A stretch of DNA of 64,000 bases. Origin: an uncultured Eubacteriales bacterium. Lineage in GTDB: Bacteria > Bacillota > Clostridia > Lachnospirales > Lachnospiraceae. The stretch covers positions 1 to 64,000 of the forward strand of contig ONBN01000016.1 in the NCBI GenBank assembly GCA_900316115.1, written 5' to 3'. Numbering within the stretch: the first letter of the stretch is position 1; the number at the start of each line of letters is the position of its first letter. Under the pieces are notes generated by a model, which was given only the letters and a program-made list of their open reading frames with translations, did no database searches and had not been told where the DNA came from. Of the stretch, positions 25,232 to 56,720 are shown piece after piece. The position numbers were made by a program, and so were the translations under genes.

Positions 25232-25273
25232 CCAACTATTTCCATTATAATTACACAAGGAGGGTCCTATTTT

Positions 25274-26659
25274 ATGAAGTACATGACCGCAGAACCGTTT
25301 CGTATCAAAATGGTAGAGCCAATCACCAGATCCACCAAAGCCCAGCGCCAGCAATGGCTTCAGGAAGCCGGATACAATGCATTCCGGCTGAAATCCGAAC
25401 AGGTTTATATCGACTGTATTACAGACAGCGGTACAAGCGCAATGAGCCAGGCACAGTGGTCAGCTATGATGATGGGTGACGAAGCCTATGCAGGATGCCG
25501 CAGCTTTTACCGTCTGGAAGCTTCCGTACAGGATATTTTTGGCATGCCTTACGTACAGCCAACCCACCAGGGCCGTGCAGCCGACTACATCATGACTCAG
25601 ATCTATTGCCGTCCAGGTGCTTATGCGATTGGTAATATGCACTTTGACACATTCAGAGGCAATGCTGAGATGATGGGATGCCTGCCTGTAGACTATGCCA
25701 TTGATGAAGGTATGGATACTGCTTCTGCTCCTCATCCTTTCAAAGGAAATATCGACCTTAATAAGATGCAGAGCCTGATCGATGAGAAGGGTGCAGAGAA
25801 TATCTGCGTATGTATCATCACCATTACCTGTAACAATAATGGTGGACAGCCTGTATCCATGCAGAATATCCGTGAAGTCAGCGCTCTTTGCAAGAAATAC
25901 AATATCCCGGTTGTTCTTGACAGTGCACGTATGGCTGAGAATGCTTACTTTATTAAGACAAGAGAGCCTGGCTATGAAAATAAGAGCATCAAAGAGATCA
26001 CCAATGAAATGTTCAGTTACTGTGAGACAGCTACCATGTCCAGTAAAAAGGACGGTCTTGTAAATATCGGCGGTCTTTTTGTTACAAGAAATAAGAGTGT
26101 TTATGAGCAGGCTAATCAGCTTGCCATTGTACATGAAGGATTTATTACATACGGCGGTATGTCCGGCCGTGATATGGAAGCACTTGCTGTAGGCCTTCAG
26201 GAAGCTTGCGAATTTGATTACCTTGACTACCGTATCAAACAGGTAGCTTATCTTGGTGAGAAATTAAAAGAAAGAGGAGTTCCGATCATCGAACCTACCG
26301 GAGGCCACGGTGTTTATGTAGACGGACGCCGTTTCTTCCCGCAGATCCCACAGAGCGAATTCCCAAGCCAGCGTCTTGTATGTGCACTTTATGAAGAGGC
26401 AGGTGTACGGGCTGTTGAGATCGGTGCATGTGCTTTCGGTTCCATTGACAAGATCACCGGCGAGCCTATTTATCCGGCTATTGAGGCTATGCGTATTGCC
26501 ATCAACCGTCGTGTTTACACCAATACCCATATGGATGTGATCGCCAATGCACTTGGTGACATCTATGAGAAGAGAGATCAGTATCGAGGCATGAAGATCG
26601 TTCATCAGGGCTCTATCCAGTCCCTGCGTCACTTCACAGCCGGATTTGAACTTTTATAA
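25274..26659 (+). CDS. tnaA: tryptophanase (PLP beta-eliminating lyase)
   Basis: Enzyme of 461 residues that splits tryptophan into indole, pyruvate and ammonia, or tyrosine into phenol in the sister family. The PLP lysine is in TMSSKKDGLVNIGG. Two diagnostic sites favour tryptophanase over tyrosine phenol-lyase: the VEIG tetrad in GVRAVEIGACAFG (TPL has MERG with a substrate-binding Arg) and LRHFTAGF near the C-terminus (TPL has LRFFTARF). The N-terminal half, however, resembles TPL (AEPFRIKMVEPIT). The start is ATG at 25274 behind ACAAGGAGGGT; the frame is open further upstream without an RBS. Confidence 0.88.
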   Translation: MKYMTAEPFRIKMVEPITRSTKAQRQQWLQEAGYNAFRLKSEQVYIDCITDSGTSAMSQAQWSAMMMGDEAYAGCRSFYRLEASVQDIFGMPYVQPTHQGRAADYIMTQIYCRPGAYAIGNMHFDTFRGNAEMMGCLPVDYAIDEGMDTASAPHPFKGNIDLNKMQSLIDEKGAENICVCIITITCNNNGGQPVSMQNIREVSALCKKYNIPVVLDSARMAENAYFIKTREPGYENKSIKEITNEMFSYCETATMSSKKDGLVNIGGLFVTRNKSVYEQANQLAIVHEGFITYGGMSGRDMEALAVGLQEACEFDYLDYRIKQVAYLGEKLKERGVPIIEPTGGHGVYVDGRRFFPQIPQSEFPSQRLVCALYEEAGVRAVEIGACAFGSIDKITGEPIYPAIEAMRIAINRRVYTNTHMDVIANALGDIYEKRDQYRGMKIVHQGSIQSLRHFTAGFELL

Positions 26660-27378: not shown

Positions 27379-28491
27379 ATGGCACAGATCATTGATGTGG
27401 AAAAAGCCAGAACCGCCCTTACAGAATGCGGATATACAGTGGAGAATATCAGTCAGATCAATGAAGGAAGCAACCACTATGTATTTGATGTGACTCTGGC
27501 AGGCGGCAAACCTGCTATCTGCAAATTCGCCAAGATCCGGGAAACAGAAGAAGGGCTTTCACAGGAAAACAAAGATACATTGTTTGGCGGTACCCTTTCC
27601 CTTGGCAGGGAAGCATATCTTTTCCGTATGATCCGTCAGGAAGCAAAGGTTCCCACGCCGGAAGTATACGGAGTACATGATTCTCCTTATGGGAAGTTTA
27701 TCCTCCTTGAAAGGATGAGCGGTATCTCTCAGAAAGAGTGTATGGTACAAAGCGGTTATTCTAAGAAGGTATTTCTTGACAGCATGAAATATCTTGGCCG
27801 TGATTTTGCACGTATCCAGAATATTACATTCCCCACTTTTGGGAATATTATGGAAGACTCCGTGATCGAGCCTTCTGATATGACAAATTTTTCAGACCGT
27901 TTCCTTCAGGTGGTTGACATGCGGCTTCTTCGCTGTCAGCAAAAGGAAGTATTCACTCCCCAGGAGCAGGAAGCAGTAACAAAGTTTTTCCATGCAAAGC
28001 TGGACTCCTTACGCTCCTGCTTTGATAAGGACAAAATGCCTCCTGTACTGGTCTTTACAGACATGCATGCTGAGAATTTCTTCACAGATGCACAGGGAGT
28101 TCCCACCGGATATTTTGACCTGGAATCTGCGCAGGCAGCTCCTGCTGCCCTTGAATTCTATGGATTCCGGTTCTTCCTCTATAACTATTATGACCATACC
28201 TGTTTTGAGGAAGCTGAAAAAGCATTTTTTGATGGTTATCAGGAAGCTGGCGGTAAATATACCCCCACTTCTGCTTCAGATTTTGAAGCCATTGATTTTC
28301 TTGCAGGATGCCGTCTTCTTGAACTTGCCCAGTCCTATTGGGGGTACATTGACGGGATCCGTGATACCTGGGGACAGGATATGAAGGATTTGCTGTTCCA
28401 TTATATGGACACTGGTGTGATCGATTACGATGCAGTAGGCAGTATCTGGAGGCAGCGTGATAAGCAGCCCCTCACCCCGGCCCGCCCATAA
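27379..28491 (+). CDS. aminoglycoside-phosphotransferase-family kinase, substrate unknown
   Basis: Protein kinase-like fold of 370 residues. The N-terminal lobe has GSNHYVFDVTL and a Lys in AICKFAK; the catalytic Asp region is VFTDMHAENFF and the metal-binding Asp is in GYFDLESAQAAP. The family covers small-molecule kinases (fructosamine, choline, methylthioribose, homoserine, antibiotic). The gene follows the regulator after 19 bases, so it belongs to the tryptophanase operon. Which molecule it phosphorylates cannot be told. A weak ACAC/GTGT hairpin with a T-run follows. Confidence 0.75.
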   Translation: MAQIIDVEKARTALTECGYTVENISQINEGSNHYVFDVTLAGGKPAICKFAKIRETEEGLSQENKDTLFGGTLSLGREAYLFRMIRQEAKVPTPEVYGVHDSPYGKFILLERMSGISQKECMVQSGYSKKVFLDSMKYLGRDFARIQNITFPTFGNIMEDSVIEPSDMTNFSDRFLQVVDMRLLRCQQKEVFTPQEQEAVTKFFHAKLDSLRSCFDKDKMPPVLVFTDMHAENFFTDAQGVPTGYFDLESAQAAPAALEFYGFRFFLYNYYDHTCFEEAEKAFFDGYQEAGGKYTPTSASDFEAIDFLAGCRLLELAQSYWGYIDGIRDTWGQDMKDLLFHYMDTGVIDYDAVGSIWRQRDKQPLTPARP

Positions 28492-28528: not shown

Positions 28529-28547
28529 CAACCTCGGTTAACGGAAT

Positions 28548-28577
28548 GCAGCGGAAGGGGGAGCGCCCTGCCGCTGC
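28548..28577 (+). other. GC-rich stem-loop upstream of the aptamer
   Basis: GCAGCGG pairs with CCGCTGC, with a further GGG/CCC stem inside. It sits between the promoter and the TPP-like domain and is not part of a normal TPP riboswitch. Confidence 0.6.
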
Positions 28578-28608
28578 GATCACATTATACATATATGATG
28601 ACGAAAAC

Positions 28609-28750
28609 CAGATTGCGAGGGAGCCTGTAATTCCAGGCTGAGAGGATCCCGTAAGGATCGACCGAAACCTGTCCACCATACACTGGTGGATTGTCAGCAT
28701 CTGCCTGAAAGTCATTTTTCAGTACATGCTGCGGTATGTACTTTTTTTTT
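28609..28750 (+). promoter_or_regulatory. TPP-riboswitch-like RNA with altered P4/P5 arm
   Basis: A P1 helix is formed by CAGATTGC (28609) and GCATCTG (28697). Inside it come GAGGGAGCC, the P3 hairpin GCCTG/CAGGC, the invariant TGAGA, a GATCC/GGATC hairpin, GACC, and AACCTG; these match the order of the THI-box. The following arm differs: TCCACC/GGTGGA forms its own stem, and GGATTGTCAGC replaces the usual GGATAATGCCAGCG, which holds the diphosphate pocket. A terminator with a competing CTGAAA/TTTCAG hairpin follows, so control of transcription is plausible. Ligand: thiamine-related, or changed. See findings. Confidence 0.6.
28721..28750 (+). terminator. riboswitch expression-platform terminator
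   Basis: AGTACAT pairs with ATGTACT across an 8-base loop, followed by nine T. It lies in the leader, 33 bases before the start codon. Hairpin 28705-28722 overlaps its 5' arm and could act as antiterminator. Confidence 0.85.
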
Positions 28751-28782
28751 GGCAGAAAATCAAATCTACGGAGGACTTTACA

Positions 28783-29814
28783 ATGAAAAAAAGAATCACC
28801 CCAGCACTCTCCCTGGCGCTCTGCCTGGGCCTTACCCTTGGAAACACCAGCACAGCATTTGCTTCTGATGCCAAGACCATTGACTCATTAAAAATCGCAT
28901 TTTCCCCTTACGCAGACTCTGATACCATTACAACTGCTACAGAGCCGCTGGAAAATCTCTTAAAAGAAACCCTGCTTGAAAAAGGCTATGATGTGGAAAA
29001 TGTAGACATGACTGTTGGTACCAGTTACACAGCTGTAGGACAGGCATTAAGCGCAGGCAGTGCAGACATTGGCTTTATTTCCGGAGGCAATTACGTACTT
29101 TTCTCTGATGACTGCGATGTGCTTCTCACAGCACTCCGCTATGGGATCAACAAGGACTCTGATGATCCGAAAGACTGGAATGACGGCACCATCGAAGAAA
29201 ACACAGAGGACATGTCCACCTATTACCGTTCCATCCTTCTTGCAGGTCCCAGTGAAAAAGGACAGGCACTTCTTGAAAAAGTGAACAACGGGGAAGAACT
29301 TACCTGGGACGATTTAAATGATGCTACCTGGGCTGTTATGGGACCAACCTCTGCTTCCGGCTATATTTACCCAAGCCTGTGGCTGCTTCAGCGTTATGGC
29401 AAAGGCATCAGTGACCTGGATCACGCAGTAGAATCTGATTCCTATACTACTTCTCTTGCACGGCTTGCATCTGGACAGGCGGATATTATGGTATCCTATG
29501 CACACATCCGTACCAAATATGCGCCGGAATGGAAAGAAACATTTGGCGGTACAGATGATATGGTAAATCAAACTGGTGTGATCGGTGTAACAGACAAGAT
29601 CTACAACGATATGATCGCTTACAGCAAAACTTCTGAAGTGATGGCTGATGATGATTTCCGCCAGGCTCTTGGGGATTCCTTCATCGAAATTGCTCAGACA
29701 GAGGAAGGAAAAGACATCATCAGTGTATTCAGCCAGGTTGGCTATGAATGGGGCGATGACTCCAATTATGATGGTGAACGTGAAGCGCAGAAGCTTCTGA
29801 AATCCGAAGAATAA
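28783..29814 (+). CDS. PhnD-type ABC transporter substrate-binding protein
   Basis: Binding protein of 343 residues (PF12974, phosphate/phosphite/phosphonate family). A signal peptide ends near AFASDAKT with no lipobox Cys at the cleavage site. The mature start SLKIAFSPYADSDT, the segment GSADIGFISGGNYVL and GPTSASGYIYPSLW are typical. Family members bind phosphonates, phosphite or other small anions. The TPP-like leader suggests a thiamine-related cargo, but this is inference. The ATG at 28783 follows CGGAGGA; an upstream in-frame ATG at 28726 lies inside the terminator and is not credible. Confidence 0.88.
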   Translation: MKKRITPALSLALCLGLTLGNTSTAFASDAKTIDSLKIAFSPYADSDTITTATEPLENLLKETLLEKGYDVENVDMTVGTSYTAVGQALSAGSADIGFISGGNYVLFSDDCDVLLTALRYGINKDSDDPKDWNDGTIEENTEDMSTYYRSILLAGPSEKGQALLEKVNNGEELTWDDLNDATWAVMGPTSASGYIYPSLWLLQRYGKGISDLDHAVESDSYTTSLARLASGQADIMVSYAHIRTKYAPEWKETFGGTDDMVNQTGVIGVTDKIYNDMIAYSKTSEVMADDDFRQALGDSFIEIAQTEEGKDIISVFSQVGYEWGDDSNYDGEREAQKLLKSEE

Positions 29815-29819
29815 GGAAG

Positions 29820-30611
29820 GTGATTCCCATAAAGCTCCAGATCAGGCATATTCATAAAACCTTTAATAACCATGTTTTGGCACTGGAAGACGTAAGCTTT
29901 TCCATTTCCCAGGGCGAATTTGTCTCTGTGATCGGTCCCTCCGGTGCAGGAAAAACTACTTTGTTCCGTATGTTAAATGGTACAGAAAGCTGTACAGACG
30001 GTCAGATCCTTATGGATGACCATTCGCTTGAAAACATGCATGGATCAAAAAAACGGCGGCTTCAGAAAAACATTTCTACCATTTATCAGGATTTCTGCCT
30101 TGTAGAAAACAGTTCCTGTCTGGAAAATGTGCTTACTGCCGCACTTCCTGACATGGGCTTTTTCCCTGCAGTTCTGGGGCTTTATGGCACTGGCCGTACA
30201 AAAACGGCCCTTCAGATGCTTACCAGGGTAGGTCTGGCAGAAAAGGAACAGGAGCCGGTAAAGAACTTGTCCGGCGGTCAGAAGCAGCGGGTAGCCATTG
30301 CCCGTGCTTTAATGCGCCATCCTTCCCTGCTTCTTGCTGATGAACCCATCGCTTCCCTGGACCCTGTTACAGGCCGTCAGATACTGTCCCTTTTAAAGGA
30401 CATTCAACAAAAGGACGGTGTAACGGTTCTTATGAACAGCCACAATCTAAAGCTTTCCATGGAATTTTCCCAGCGTCTCATCGGACTGAACAATGGCAGA
30501 ATTGTTTTTGACGGTTCTCCTGATGAGATAAATGATTCTGTGATCCGTACCATATACGGTGATTCCAGGATCAGCCCTCCAGATAATAACAGAAAGGAAG
30601 TGGAGCTATGA
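29820..30611 (+). CDS. PhnC-type ABC transporter ATPase
   Basis: ATPase of about 263 residues with Walker A GPSGAGKTT, signature LSGGQKQRVAIARAL, Walker B LLADEP and the switch His in MNSHNLK. The start is unclear: the only standard codon is GTG at 29820, but that GTG is part of an extended Shine-Dalgarno match (AAGGAAGGTGAT). By spacing, the start would instead fall at an ATA codon at 29829. It overlaps the permease gene by four bases. Confidence 0.88.
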   Translation: MIPIKLQIRHIHKTFNNHVLALEDVSFSISQGEFVSVIGPSGAGKTTLFRMLNGTESCTDGQILMDDHSLENMHGSKKRRLQKNISTIYQDFCLVENSSCLENVLTAALPDMGFFPAVLGLYGTGRTKTALQMLTRVGLAEKEQEPVKNLSGGQKQRVAIARALMRHPSLLLADEPIASLDPVTGRQILSLLKDIQQKDGVTVLMNSHNLKLSMEFSQRLIGLNNGRIVFDGSPDEINDSVIRTIYGDSRISPPDNNRKEVEL

Positions 30612-32149
30612 CCAGAAGCAGTAAACGCAGGTGGAAGCATCTGGCCTGCTTCCTTCTTTTTTTATGTCTGTTTCTTTTTACAGCAGTCTATACACAATGT
30701 GACCCTGCCTTATTCTGGAAACGCCGTGATCATCTTAGTGACATTCTGTCAGGTATGTTTCCTCTGGATCTGGCTTATATCCCACACATTCTTACCCCGC
30801 TTTTTTATACCATCCAGATGTCTGTTACAGGTACTGTGATCGGATCCCTTCTTGCTGGTATTTTGGCACCTGTGTGTGCAGATTCCATGGATTTTCCAAA
30901 ATGGAGCCGATATATTTTCCGGTTTCTCATACAGATCCTCCGGTCTTTTCCTGCACTGATCCTTGCCCTTTGTGCCACCTTTCTTTTTGGTCTTGGCACT
31001 TTTGCAGGTACCTTTGCCATTATCCTGTATACCTTTGCCATTATGACCCGCCTTACCTATCAGGATATGGAAGCAGCTTCGCCCCTGGCTTATCAGGCAC
31101 TGCGGACTATGGGCACTTCCCGTTATCCTGCGTATATCCATGGGCTTTTCCCGGAAATCGCCCCATCCTTTTTCACAAATGCGCTGTATATGCTGGAAAC
31201 CAATGTTCGACACAGTTCCATCCTTGGCTATGTGGGAGCCGGAGGAATTGGCCTTCTTCTCAATGAAAAAATATCCTGGCTGGAATATGGAAAAGTGGGA
31301 GCCATTTTACTAGTACTTTTTATGGCTGTCTTTGTGATTGAGAATCTCAGCCGTTATCTGGCTGCCCTGATCCGTAAAGAACGGACATTAAAAAAACAGT
31401 ATATAAAACTGCTTTTGCTTCTTCTGGCAGCCCTGTTTCTTGTTTGCACCATCACTTTATCACCGCCGGATTTCAGCAGGACAAGCCTGCAGGCCCTGAA
31501 AAATATGTTTTCCGGATTGTTTTCACCAGACTGGGGATTTTTCTTTTCCACAGGAAAGGACGGGCTTTTTGCCCTTATCCTTGAAACCCTTTGTATCGCT
31601 TTTGCCGGTACTGTGGTAGGCGCTGTTTTCTCTGTACCTTTGGCATTTGTAAATACCAGCCGTTTTGTACCTGATCCTGCTGCCTTCTTCTTTAATCTGG
31701 TGATCATTGCCATCCGGTCCATCCCCTTCCTGATCTACGGTCTGATCTTTATTCGTGTATCCGGCCCAGGCCCTTTTACAGGAGTGCTGACCCTTTCCAT
31801 GTGCAGCATCGGACTTCTTACAAAGCGTTTTACCGAAGCCCTGGAAGCCCTGGATCTAAAACCTTACCATGCCCTATTGGCTATAGGTACCCATCCGATA
31901 CCAGCGATCTGTCATGCCATTTTGCCTCAGCTAAGACCTGTCTTTATATCCATCTTCCTGTATCGGTTTGATGTAAACATCCGTGAGGCTTCTGTACTTG
32001 GCCTTGTAGGTGCTGGTGGCATTGGTGCACCACTGATCTTTTCCATGAATCAATATGCCTGGGAAAAGGCTGGTGCTATCCTTCTTGGCTTAATTTTGCT
32101 GGTTTGGCTTATTGACATGATTTCAATCAAGATTAATCATCTTTTATGA
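30608..32149 (+). CDS. PhnE-type permease, two domains fused
   Basis: Membrane protein of 513 residues made of two PhnE-like permease domains in tandem. Each half ends with an EAA-type loop (EAASPLAYQALRTMG in the first, EALEALDLKPYHALLAIG in the second) and a signature GYVGAGGIG or GLVGAGGIG. One polypeptide therefore supplies the whole channel, whereas the usual transporter uses a dimer of a 270-residue PhnE. Starts at ATG overlapping the ATPase stop (ATGA). Confidence 0.88.
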   Translation: MTRSSKRRWKHLACFLLFLCLFLFTAVYTQCDPALFWKRRDHLSDILSGMFPLDLAYIPHILTPLFYTIQMSVTGTVIGSLLAGILAPVCADSMDFPKWSRYIFRFLIQILRSFPALILALCATFLFGLGTFAGTFAIILYTFAIMTRLTYQDMEAASPLAYQALRTMGTSRYPAYIHGLFPEIAPSFFTNALYMLETNVRHSSILGYVGAGGIGLLLNEKISWLEYGKVGAILLVLFMAVFVIENLSRYLAALIRKERTLKKQYIKLLLLLLAALFLVCTITLSPPDFSRTSLQALKNMFSGLFSPDWGFFFSTGKDGLFALILETLCIAFAGTVVGAVFSVPLAFVNTSRFVPDPAAFFFNLVIIAIRSIPFLIYGLIFIRVSGPGPFTGVLTLSMCSIGLLTKRFTEALEALDLKPYHALLAIGTHPIPAICHAILPQLRPVFISIFLYRFDVNIREASVLGLVGAGGIGAPLIFSMNQYAWEKAGAILLGLILLVWLIDMISIKINHLL

Positions 32150-40986: not shown

Positions 40987-41087
40987 CCTAATTGGGGTGC
41001 CTCGGTAATACACCCAGCCGCTTTGGCGTGTTGCGGCCTTTCCGATTTGTTGCGGCCAACGGGCCAACGTCGCCTCTCGGTATTAGG
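40987..41087 (-). other. structured RNA element upstream of rpsM
   Basis: On the minus strand CCTAAT and ATTAGG close a 101-base domain with inner hairpins (GGGTG/CACCC, TTGGC/GCCAA, GGCG/CGCC). Two direct repeats are seen: GGCCGCAACA twice, and TAATACCGAG versus TATTACCGAG. A second hairpin (CTTGT/ACAAG) lies closer to rpsM. Possibly a ribosomal-protein-responsive leader. Confidence 0.5.
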
Positions 41088-56500: not shown

Positions 56501-56720
56501 AAAAAAAGTCTCCTCCTATTCGTACTCTCAATCAGTACGACAAGCGGCGACTGTACACATCTCCGTGTGTGTCCTAAGACATCTTTCCACACGCCCATCC
56601 CTAGATGGTCTTCTGAACTTGTACAGTGACTTGTCGTCAGTTTCCTAACTTGACATTCGCTCCACGGAAAACCTGCCATTTGGCAGCAACCTCGCGCTTC
56701 ATAGCTATCATGTCACAGCA
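56501..56720 (-). promoter_or_regulatory. S10-operon leader RNA
   Basis: A leader of about 220 bases precedes rpsJ. ACGACAAG (56537) pairs with CTTGTCGT (56630), and ACTGTACA (56550) with TGTACAGT (56620), making a long composite stem; inside lies CGTGTG/CACACG. This resembles the Firmicutes S10 leader that responds to an operon-encoded ribosomal protein. Confidence 0.7.

Follow-up and report, generated by a model that had tools for sequence, protein, structure and literature searches.

A leader RNA upstream of a PhnDCE-type importer

The window (the whole 64,000-nucleotide, or 64 kb, stretch of DNA analysed here) carries on its plus strand three genes for an importer of the PhnDCE type: a PhnD-type substrate-binding protein of 343 aa (28783–29814), a PhnC-type ATPase (29820–30611) and a PhnE-type permease with two permease stretches in one chain (30608–32149). 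PhnC and PhnE score above the phosphonate equivalog cut-offs (TIGR02315, 282.6 bits with a cut-off of 266.1; TIGR01097, 434.7 bits with a cut-off of 216.7), whereas PhnD, which matches PF12974 at 121 bits, falls far below the PhnD equivalog cut-off (37.4 versus 261.1 bits) and reaches 79.7 against a cut-off of 112.05 on the wider subfamily model TIGR01098. Compared with PhnDCE importers of phosphonate or phosphite, PhnC, PhnE and the fold of PhnD are alike, and the PhnD score below the cut-off and the thiamin-type leader described below are different. The fold of PhnD was predicted with a pLDDT of 36 from one sequence and of 88.1 with 28 sequences. In a PDB search it matched HtxB, PtxB, PhnD and Mycoplasma p37 alike, so that phosphite and hypophosphite binders were not separated from thiamin binders; a PDB sequence search with PhnD alone gave no match. 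Mycoplasma p37/Cypl and MG289 are thiamin-binding lipoproteins (PF06646). The PF06646 model (CypI/p37, gathering score 27 bits) listed no match up to E 10 for the window PhnD, and scored 25.1 and 25.0 bits on the relatives P0071 and P0087.

Directly upstream of the leader is a gene for an APH-type kinase (27379–28491, plus strand), and farther upstream one for a beta-eliminating lyase of the tryptophanase/tyrosine phenol-lyase group (25268–26656, plus strand), which scores above the general tryptophanase cut-off and below the specific ones listed. Blautia glucerasea has the same arrangement, in which a tryptophanase-like enzyme, a PAS/HTH regulator and an APH-type kinase are followed by the leader and PhnDCE. 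Elsewhere in the window, Rfam recognises two ribosomal protein leaders on the minus strand, S10-Clostridia (56631–56710, 94.6 bits) and S4-Clostridia (40987–41042, 47.2 bits).

The leader, also on the plus strand, includes a hairpin, P0 (28548–28577), whose loop is GGAGCG (28560–28565). This hairpin lies outside the coordinates given in the first-pass annotation and was missed there. A linker (28578–28608), variable in length in the RNA class described below and near-invariant in its 3′ part in three PhnD leaders, joins P0 to the 5′ strand of P1, CAGATTGC (28609–28616, with one bulged T). The following segment, 28615–28664, corresponds to the pyrimidine half of a TPP riboswitch and consists of GCGA, GGG, the P3 hairpin GCCTG/CAGGC (28623–28638), TGAGAG (28639–28644), the P3a hairpin GATCC/GGATC (28645–28659) and GACCG, in which GACC was read at 28660–28663. 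TGAGAG is invariant in the class alignment and corresponds to J3/2, which in TPP riboswitches forms the pyrimidine pocket (PMC11477058). Downstream lie a CTG/CAG plus TCCACC/GGTGGA hairpin (28669–28697; the TCCACC/GGTGGA stem itself is at 28672–28690), the 3′ strand of P1, GCATCTG (28697–28703), and an intrinsic terminator (28721–28750) made up of a hairpin at 28721–28742 and nine T at 28742–28750. Folding energies also predict an antiterminator spanning 28695–28731, in which CAGCAT (28695–28700) pairs with ATGCTG (28726–28731) and which overlaps the P1 3′ strand; both of its strands are identical in loci L004 and L013. The P1 strands, P3, TGAGAG, GACC, the TCCACC/GGTGGA stem and the terminator with its nine T had all been described earlier, and each was confirmed in the sequence. 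The fold of 28605–28760 was better than all 200 of 200 shuffled sequences (z −3.1), and that of the aptamer alone was weakly above the shuffles (z −1.96, with 8 of 200 equally good). By eye, the GGAGCG loop and L3 could form a kissing pairing.

Two other genomes have this leader before this gene, G250 (94% identical) and G063, which belongs to another genus, and with the window these make three known independent PhnD leaders. When 250 genomes of the family were searched for PhnD, nine had a relative, the window's own genome (G000) included; the leader was present in two of the nine (G000, and G063 at 86% identity) and missing from the other seven. In the genus, the full leader was found in 2 of 64 genomes (G000 and G250), four further BLAST matches being short. 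The GTDB contigs contained nine loci, including Blautia glucerasea at 97% identity, which places the window near Blautia. No class core was found at seven PhnD relatives of 46–54% identity (L005–L011) or at seven of 50–55% identity (L050–L056), and no Rfam family reached the gathering score in the 16 PhnD loci scanned. Conservation of the leader on all PhnD relatives is ruled out by these relatives (46–55% identity) lacking the core; conservation next to this transporter, whose absence would have spoken against the first-pass reading, is seen in the window and two close relatives and not at that greater distance. Between the window and L004, compensatory changes affect both strands of P3, P3a and the TCCACC stem.

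Relation to TPP riboswitches and to a wider RNA class

The leader at 28609–28750 had been proposed to be a TPP riboswitch variant in which the pyrimidine half is retained and the diphosphate half is gone, and this is supported. RF00059 could be fitted to it only over positions 13–53 of 105, with 16.1 bits against a cut-off of 54.3, a score at which unrelated Rfam families match the leader similarly weakly. None of the Rfam families reached the gathering score on the leader, nor did TPP anywhere in the 64 kb window. A canonical TPP riboswitch is ruled out by this score, and because only the 5′ half aligned, the canonical 3′ arm is missing. P2, P3, UGAGA, P3a and ACC of the pyrimidine half are present in the RF00059 and class alignments, and the P4/P5 diphosphate arm with its conserved sequence is absent from the window leader, as judged from the sequence and the RF00059 alignment. 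The window's own genome has two full-length TPP matches slightly below the cut-off, one of 51.3 bits before a gene reading as thiT (judged from the protein sequence alone) and one of 51.1 bits before thiC, which was confirmed at that place. The canonical TPP riboswitches of L014 and L017, in the same genus, have a 5′ half that is near-identical.

A model of the three PhnD leaders that contains no P0 or upstream sequence (R1) gave matches at E 0.01 in 85 of 397 genomes of the family. The loci then read (L020–L047 and 20 further chosen matches) were of two kinds, canonical TPP riboswitches and leaders that lacked the canonical 3′ half, the latter often positioned 143–327 nt downstream of a canonical TPP riboswitch. 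Eighteen class members were identified among the R1-fetched loci, one of them (L029) in the flank of a canonical match, and all 18 had the GGAGCG hairpin. The hairpin was also present in L014 and L138, fetched without any class model containing P0, and in the window, L004 and L013. Members share with the window the GGAGCG hairpin, GCGA, UGAGAG and GACCG. Since R1 led to a group of leaders before thiW and thiM, confinement of the leader to PhnD operons is ruled out; these relatives and the GGAGCG hairpin are absent from the first-pass account.

The covariation of the class was determined in an alignment of 19 sequences (A4), in which P0 was joined to the core and the window and L004 were included. 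Of its cells, 95.0% were paired, compared with 74.2 after shuffling; 72 cells were changed on both sides (18.2 shuffled), and the covariation score was 0.557 (0.137 shuffled, and at most 0.122 for slid versions). Covariation was strong in P0, P3 and P3a. The P2 pairs never vary, and 16 of the 19 sequences have an A-G mismatch at the outermost P3 pair (columns 44–59). Covariation in homologues, on which the earlier reading had been staked, was thus found both in the PhnD leaders (P3, P3a and the TCCACC stem) and class-wide (P0, P3 and P3a), and that reading was not refuted. Of 38 members (the 42 class loci minus four near-duplicates), 15 have long complementary P1 helices that exceed their shuffles (at most 5 of 100 as good), and P1 as a general contiguous helix is ruled out by this count; the window P1 is not above its shuffles by the contiguous-helix measure (66 of 100 as good).

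We sorted 146 core-like matches by the canonical 3′ half and GCGA, leaving the hairpin unused; identical copies and matches with less than 60 nt of 3′ sequence were left out. Forty-two had GCGA, 97 were canonical without GCGA and seven had neither, these including L045, L122 at 1531 and a real TPP riboswitch missed by the rule (L122 at 1304). The rule labelled one GCGA member, L107, as canonical through a chance match, although R3, a model whose training set was 16 thiW leaders and nothing else, gives it 91.9 bits. Counting only stems in which 7 or more of 10 positions pair, the GGAGCG hairpin was found in 35 of the 42 class cores, 19 of the 42 members having been fetched with a model that contains P0 (R2), and in none of the 97 canonical TPP cores, one of which has a GGAGCG loop and no hairpin. 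In four more class cores the loop sits on a stem in which 6 of 10 positions pair, and in L111, L116 and L117 the loop is one letter off and the stem is seen by eye.

On the 64 kb window, R3 with E up to 1 gave two matches, at 28592–28664 (34.8 bits) and at 28546–28578 (21.9 bits), which are in class order and are split by the long linker. R3 scored 10.2 and 10.7 bits on the canonical TPP riboswitches of the window's own genome, and up to 43.4 bits on canonical riboswitches elsewhere (L034). Because the latter score exceeds the 34.8 bits of the window core, the core score alone is no proof of class membership. What separates the class from TPP riboswitches is the GGAGCG hairpin together with the missing 3′ half; the core by itself does not, and P0 with its GGAGCG loop is the element that marks the class. 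The class shares P2, P3, UGAGA, P3a and GACC with RF00059 and differs from it in lacking the P4/P5 arm, in the extra upstream GGAGCG hairpin and in the GCGA before GGG.

At E 0.001, R2 had matches in 26 of 64 genomes of the genus and in 86 of 391 genomes of the taxonomic class, and many of these matches are canonical TPP riboswitches. Loci were retrieved for the best matches only, so the counts of class members are lower bounds. Fifteen of the 391 genomes supplied L107–L121, which satisfy the anatomy rule and come from nine families other than that of the window. Rfam, scanned at the gathering score on 24 of the 42 class loci, recognised TPP as the only family, and the class regions of L036 and L022, searched down to E 10, gave nothing relevant. 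These results establish a real, covarying RNA class that is related to the TPP riboswitch and unrecognised by Rfam where scanned.

Other features were observed in individual loci. L045 (G179:C2:192149-192253), which lies before a gene reading as thiE, combines a TPP-like 5′ half with an odd 3′ half, has no GGAGCG hairpin and is perhaps another variant. L122 at 1480–1640 (G576) is a borderline member without GCGA: it closely follows a canonical TPP riboswitch, its core is class-like, and a short-stem GGAGCG loop lies upstream. In L025, L036, L039 and L046, a possible outer long-range helix, GGAAACG/CGTTTCC, seen by eye, would enclose P0 and the core, and a recurring AAAGGAGG precedes it. In L022, L065 and L066, P0 is very GC-rich and terminator-like, with TTTT or TTTTT directly after it.

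Gene context and thiamin genes

The first recognised gene behind the 42 class loci, called by BLAST to five references and with near-duplicates (L065/L066, L079–L081) counted in, is thiW in 37, thiM in two (L046 and L118) and PhnD in three. Three ThiW references and one ThiM reference pass the equivalog cut-offs, and Pfam agrees. In L029 another open frame precedes the recognised gene, and no thiW start could be located in L108. Both thiW and thiM are thiazole-salvage genes. With thiW or thiM behind 39 of 42 class loci, the variant falls among leaders of thiamin-precursor genes, and for that reason "phosphonate" is a doubtful name for the window importer.

Twenty-seven of the 42 class loci have a canonical TPP riboswitch no more than 520 nt upstream. 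Ten have none in that distance, the three PhnD leaders (the window's included) among them, and five have shorter upstream sequence with none counted, although L068 shows the 3′ part of a TPP riboswitch at its edge. The HMP-PP riboswitch (thiS motif, Atilho et al. 2019; PMC6478431) occupies the same niche as much of the class, behind a TPP riboswitch and before thiW or other thiazole genes, while the window leader stands before PhnD and has no TPP riboswitch in the 520 nt upstream; in C. lundense the order is TPP riboswitch, HMP-PP riboswitch, thiW. As published there, however, it is one terminator hairpin with an embedded aptamer and an ON switch, whereas the class has separate hairpins and a TPP-like core, and the window leader has a separate terminator. 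On this architecture, as far as the published description gives it, the HMP-PP riboswitch as such is ruled out.

The drafts of the three genomes with a PhnD leader are 91% (G000), 99% (G250, which agrees with G000) and 89% (G063) complete. Of 13 genomes searched for ThiM, six had a match above the cut-off (G309, G259, G223, G207, G265 and G047) and two more a weak one; ThiM was not found in G000, G250, G063, G033 and G042. ThiG at E 1e-30 was found in 9 of 41 class-bearing genomes and in none of G000, G250 and G063; partial matches in these three, of 25 to 32 bits (32 bits in G000 and G250), are above the Pfam cut-off of 23, cover about one-third of the profile and are not taken as ThiG. ThiC was present in 21 of the 41 class-bearing genomes, two as fragments, so that de novo HMP synthesis is not general among them; G000 and G250 have ThiC and ThiE, neither of which was found in G063. 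The thiE gene of G000 is located together with a gene reading as thiD. G063 lacks more thiamin genes and also has a thiW-type class copy (L060). From its gene content, the organism with the window's own genome seems able to synthesise the pyrimidine and couple it with a thiazole phosphate, but a gene that would supply the latter was not found; we infer from this gap that phosphorylated thiazole is one candidate cargo of the importer.

Proposed ligand and predicted sign of the switch

TPP is held at both ends in its riboswitches: G42 and A43 of J3/2 sandwich the pyrimidine ring, which intercalates there, and the opposite end is bound by P4/P5 together with Mg ions (PMC11477058; also PMC10573300). 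The class keeps the J3/2 pyrimidine site and is without P4/P5. It likely works as a riboswitch, and the reading that we favour, with somewhat more confidence than doubt, is that the window leader belongs to a class that combines the TPP pyrimidine half with an upstream GGAGCG hairpin in place of any P4/P5 and that would sense some thiamin metabolite with a pyrimidine but not TPP itself, HMP-PP being the most likely one. As the ligand taken alone, HMP-PP is a tentative choice, which we would hold with a little less than even confidence. By this reading, the ring of the ligand would stack at UGAGA just as that of TPP does in its own riboswitch, and the second ligand contact would fall to the GGAGCG hairpin. 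Binding would close P1 (28609–28616 with 28697–28703), free the terminator at 28721–28750 and switch PhnDCE off, whereas without ligand CAGCAT (28695–28700) would pair with ATGCTG (28726–28731) as the antiterminator. PhnDCE would import a thiamin precursor, perhaps phosphorylated, and not a phosphonate.

P1 leaves the terminator free, and its 3′ strand shares 28697–28700 with the antiterminator; the two are therefore mutually exclusive. In the nascent RNA (28600–28733), the antiterminator state is calculated at −40.9 kcal/mol and the P1 state at −37.0 kcal/mol. Once the terminator is complete, P1 plus terminator has −44.5 kcal/mol (free minimum −46.3) versus −42.4 kcal/mol for the antiterminator; with P0 included, the gap is just −69.8 versus −68.4. 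The window platform is accordingly modelled, by prediction, as ligand-OFF. The TCCACC stem and GGATTGTCAGC, read in the first-pass annotation as a rebuilt ligand arm, are common to the three PhnD leaders only; the remaining class members that were read have a different 3′ part or none. That interpretation is not supported, and this part, an insert of the PhnD type, is more likely expression platform than ligand arm. In the thiW/thiM platforms, P1 affected Shine-Dalgarno accessibility without consistent direction among 16 chosen members, two of which gave no start codon and one of which (L107) had a misplaced site.

The predicted OFF sign fits badly with an HMP-PP signal calling for thiazole uptake, given that the precedent at the same genetic place is an ON switch (PMC6478431), and for this reason HMP-PP is only our first choice. 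Three explanations offer themselves: an incorrect OFF prediction, a PhnDCE that takes up the pyrimidine side, or thiamin or thiamin monophosphate as the ligand. The last of these would leave the RNA class as described and make it an OFF switch by which enough product stops the import of thiazole or other precursors. It would suit the kept pyrimidine half, the lost diphosphate arm, the predicted OFF platform and the thiazole-salvage genes; the published HMP-PP precedent, an ON switch, speaks against it, and we regard it as unlikely but worth keeping in view. That the leader is a divergent TPP riboswitch still binding TPP seems improbable. Its 5′ half is clearly homologous, and the canonical riboswitches of L014 and L017 are near-identical there, but it has no P4/P5 pocket, the members share a P0 hairpin with a nearly invariant loop, and a second TPP sensor would be redundant in the 27 of 42 loci that follow a complete TPP riboswitch.

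A structured leader that binds a protein, or acts by another route without a small ligand, with the TPP-like half as an architectural relic, could be argued from P0 as a strong separate hairpin and from the variable 3′ part. We consider this quite improbable, in that the invariant positions coincide with the pyrimidine-ring site of TPP riboswitches, and thiamin-precursor genes come first in 39 of 42 loci, the other three being PhnDCE. One could also envision that a real phosphonate or phosphite importer captured the leader, which in the window would no longer report on thiamin. PhnC and PhnE pass the phosphonate equivalog cut-offs, and the PhnD fold has matches to HtxB, PtxB and PhnD and also to Mycoplasma p37. 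Nevertheless, PhnD itself has only 37.4 of the 261.1 bits of its equivalog, and the class nucleotides are kept with covariation between two genera, which makes such a capture very hard to credit.

A description of the class RNA was not found in the open-licence literature searched (supplementary files excluded), including passages of PMC8632094, PMC11109978 and PMC6429828. The leader is likely a previously undescribed RNA sensor, which would regulate the uptake of vitamin B1 building blocks. If this is true, a widespread riboswitch was re-engineered by evolution for another ligand via one of its two ligand-holding arms, and such a modular change of ligand becomes directly testable. The class adds an RNA unrecognised by Rfam to the well-studied vitamin pathway of Clostridia, and it suggests a testable function for importers currently named phosphonate transporters. 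A bolder proposal, which we would sooner doubt than accept, is that this is a second natural class of precursor riboswitch, a TPP riboswitch minus the diphosphate arm plus a 5′ docking hairpin, spread in Clostridia as a second input behind TPP riboswitches, and that in Blautia relatives PhnDCE imports a phosphorylated precursor, for example thiazole phosphate, replacing ThiG and ThiM. In the absence of ThiM, phosphorylation of an imported precursor might fall to the APH-type kinase encoded upstream of the leader.
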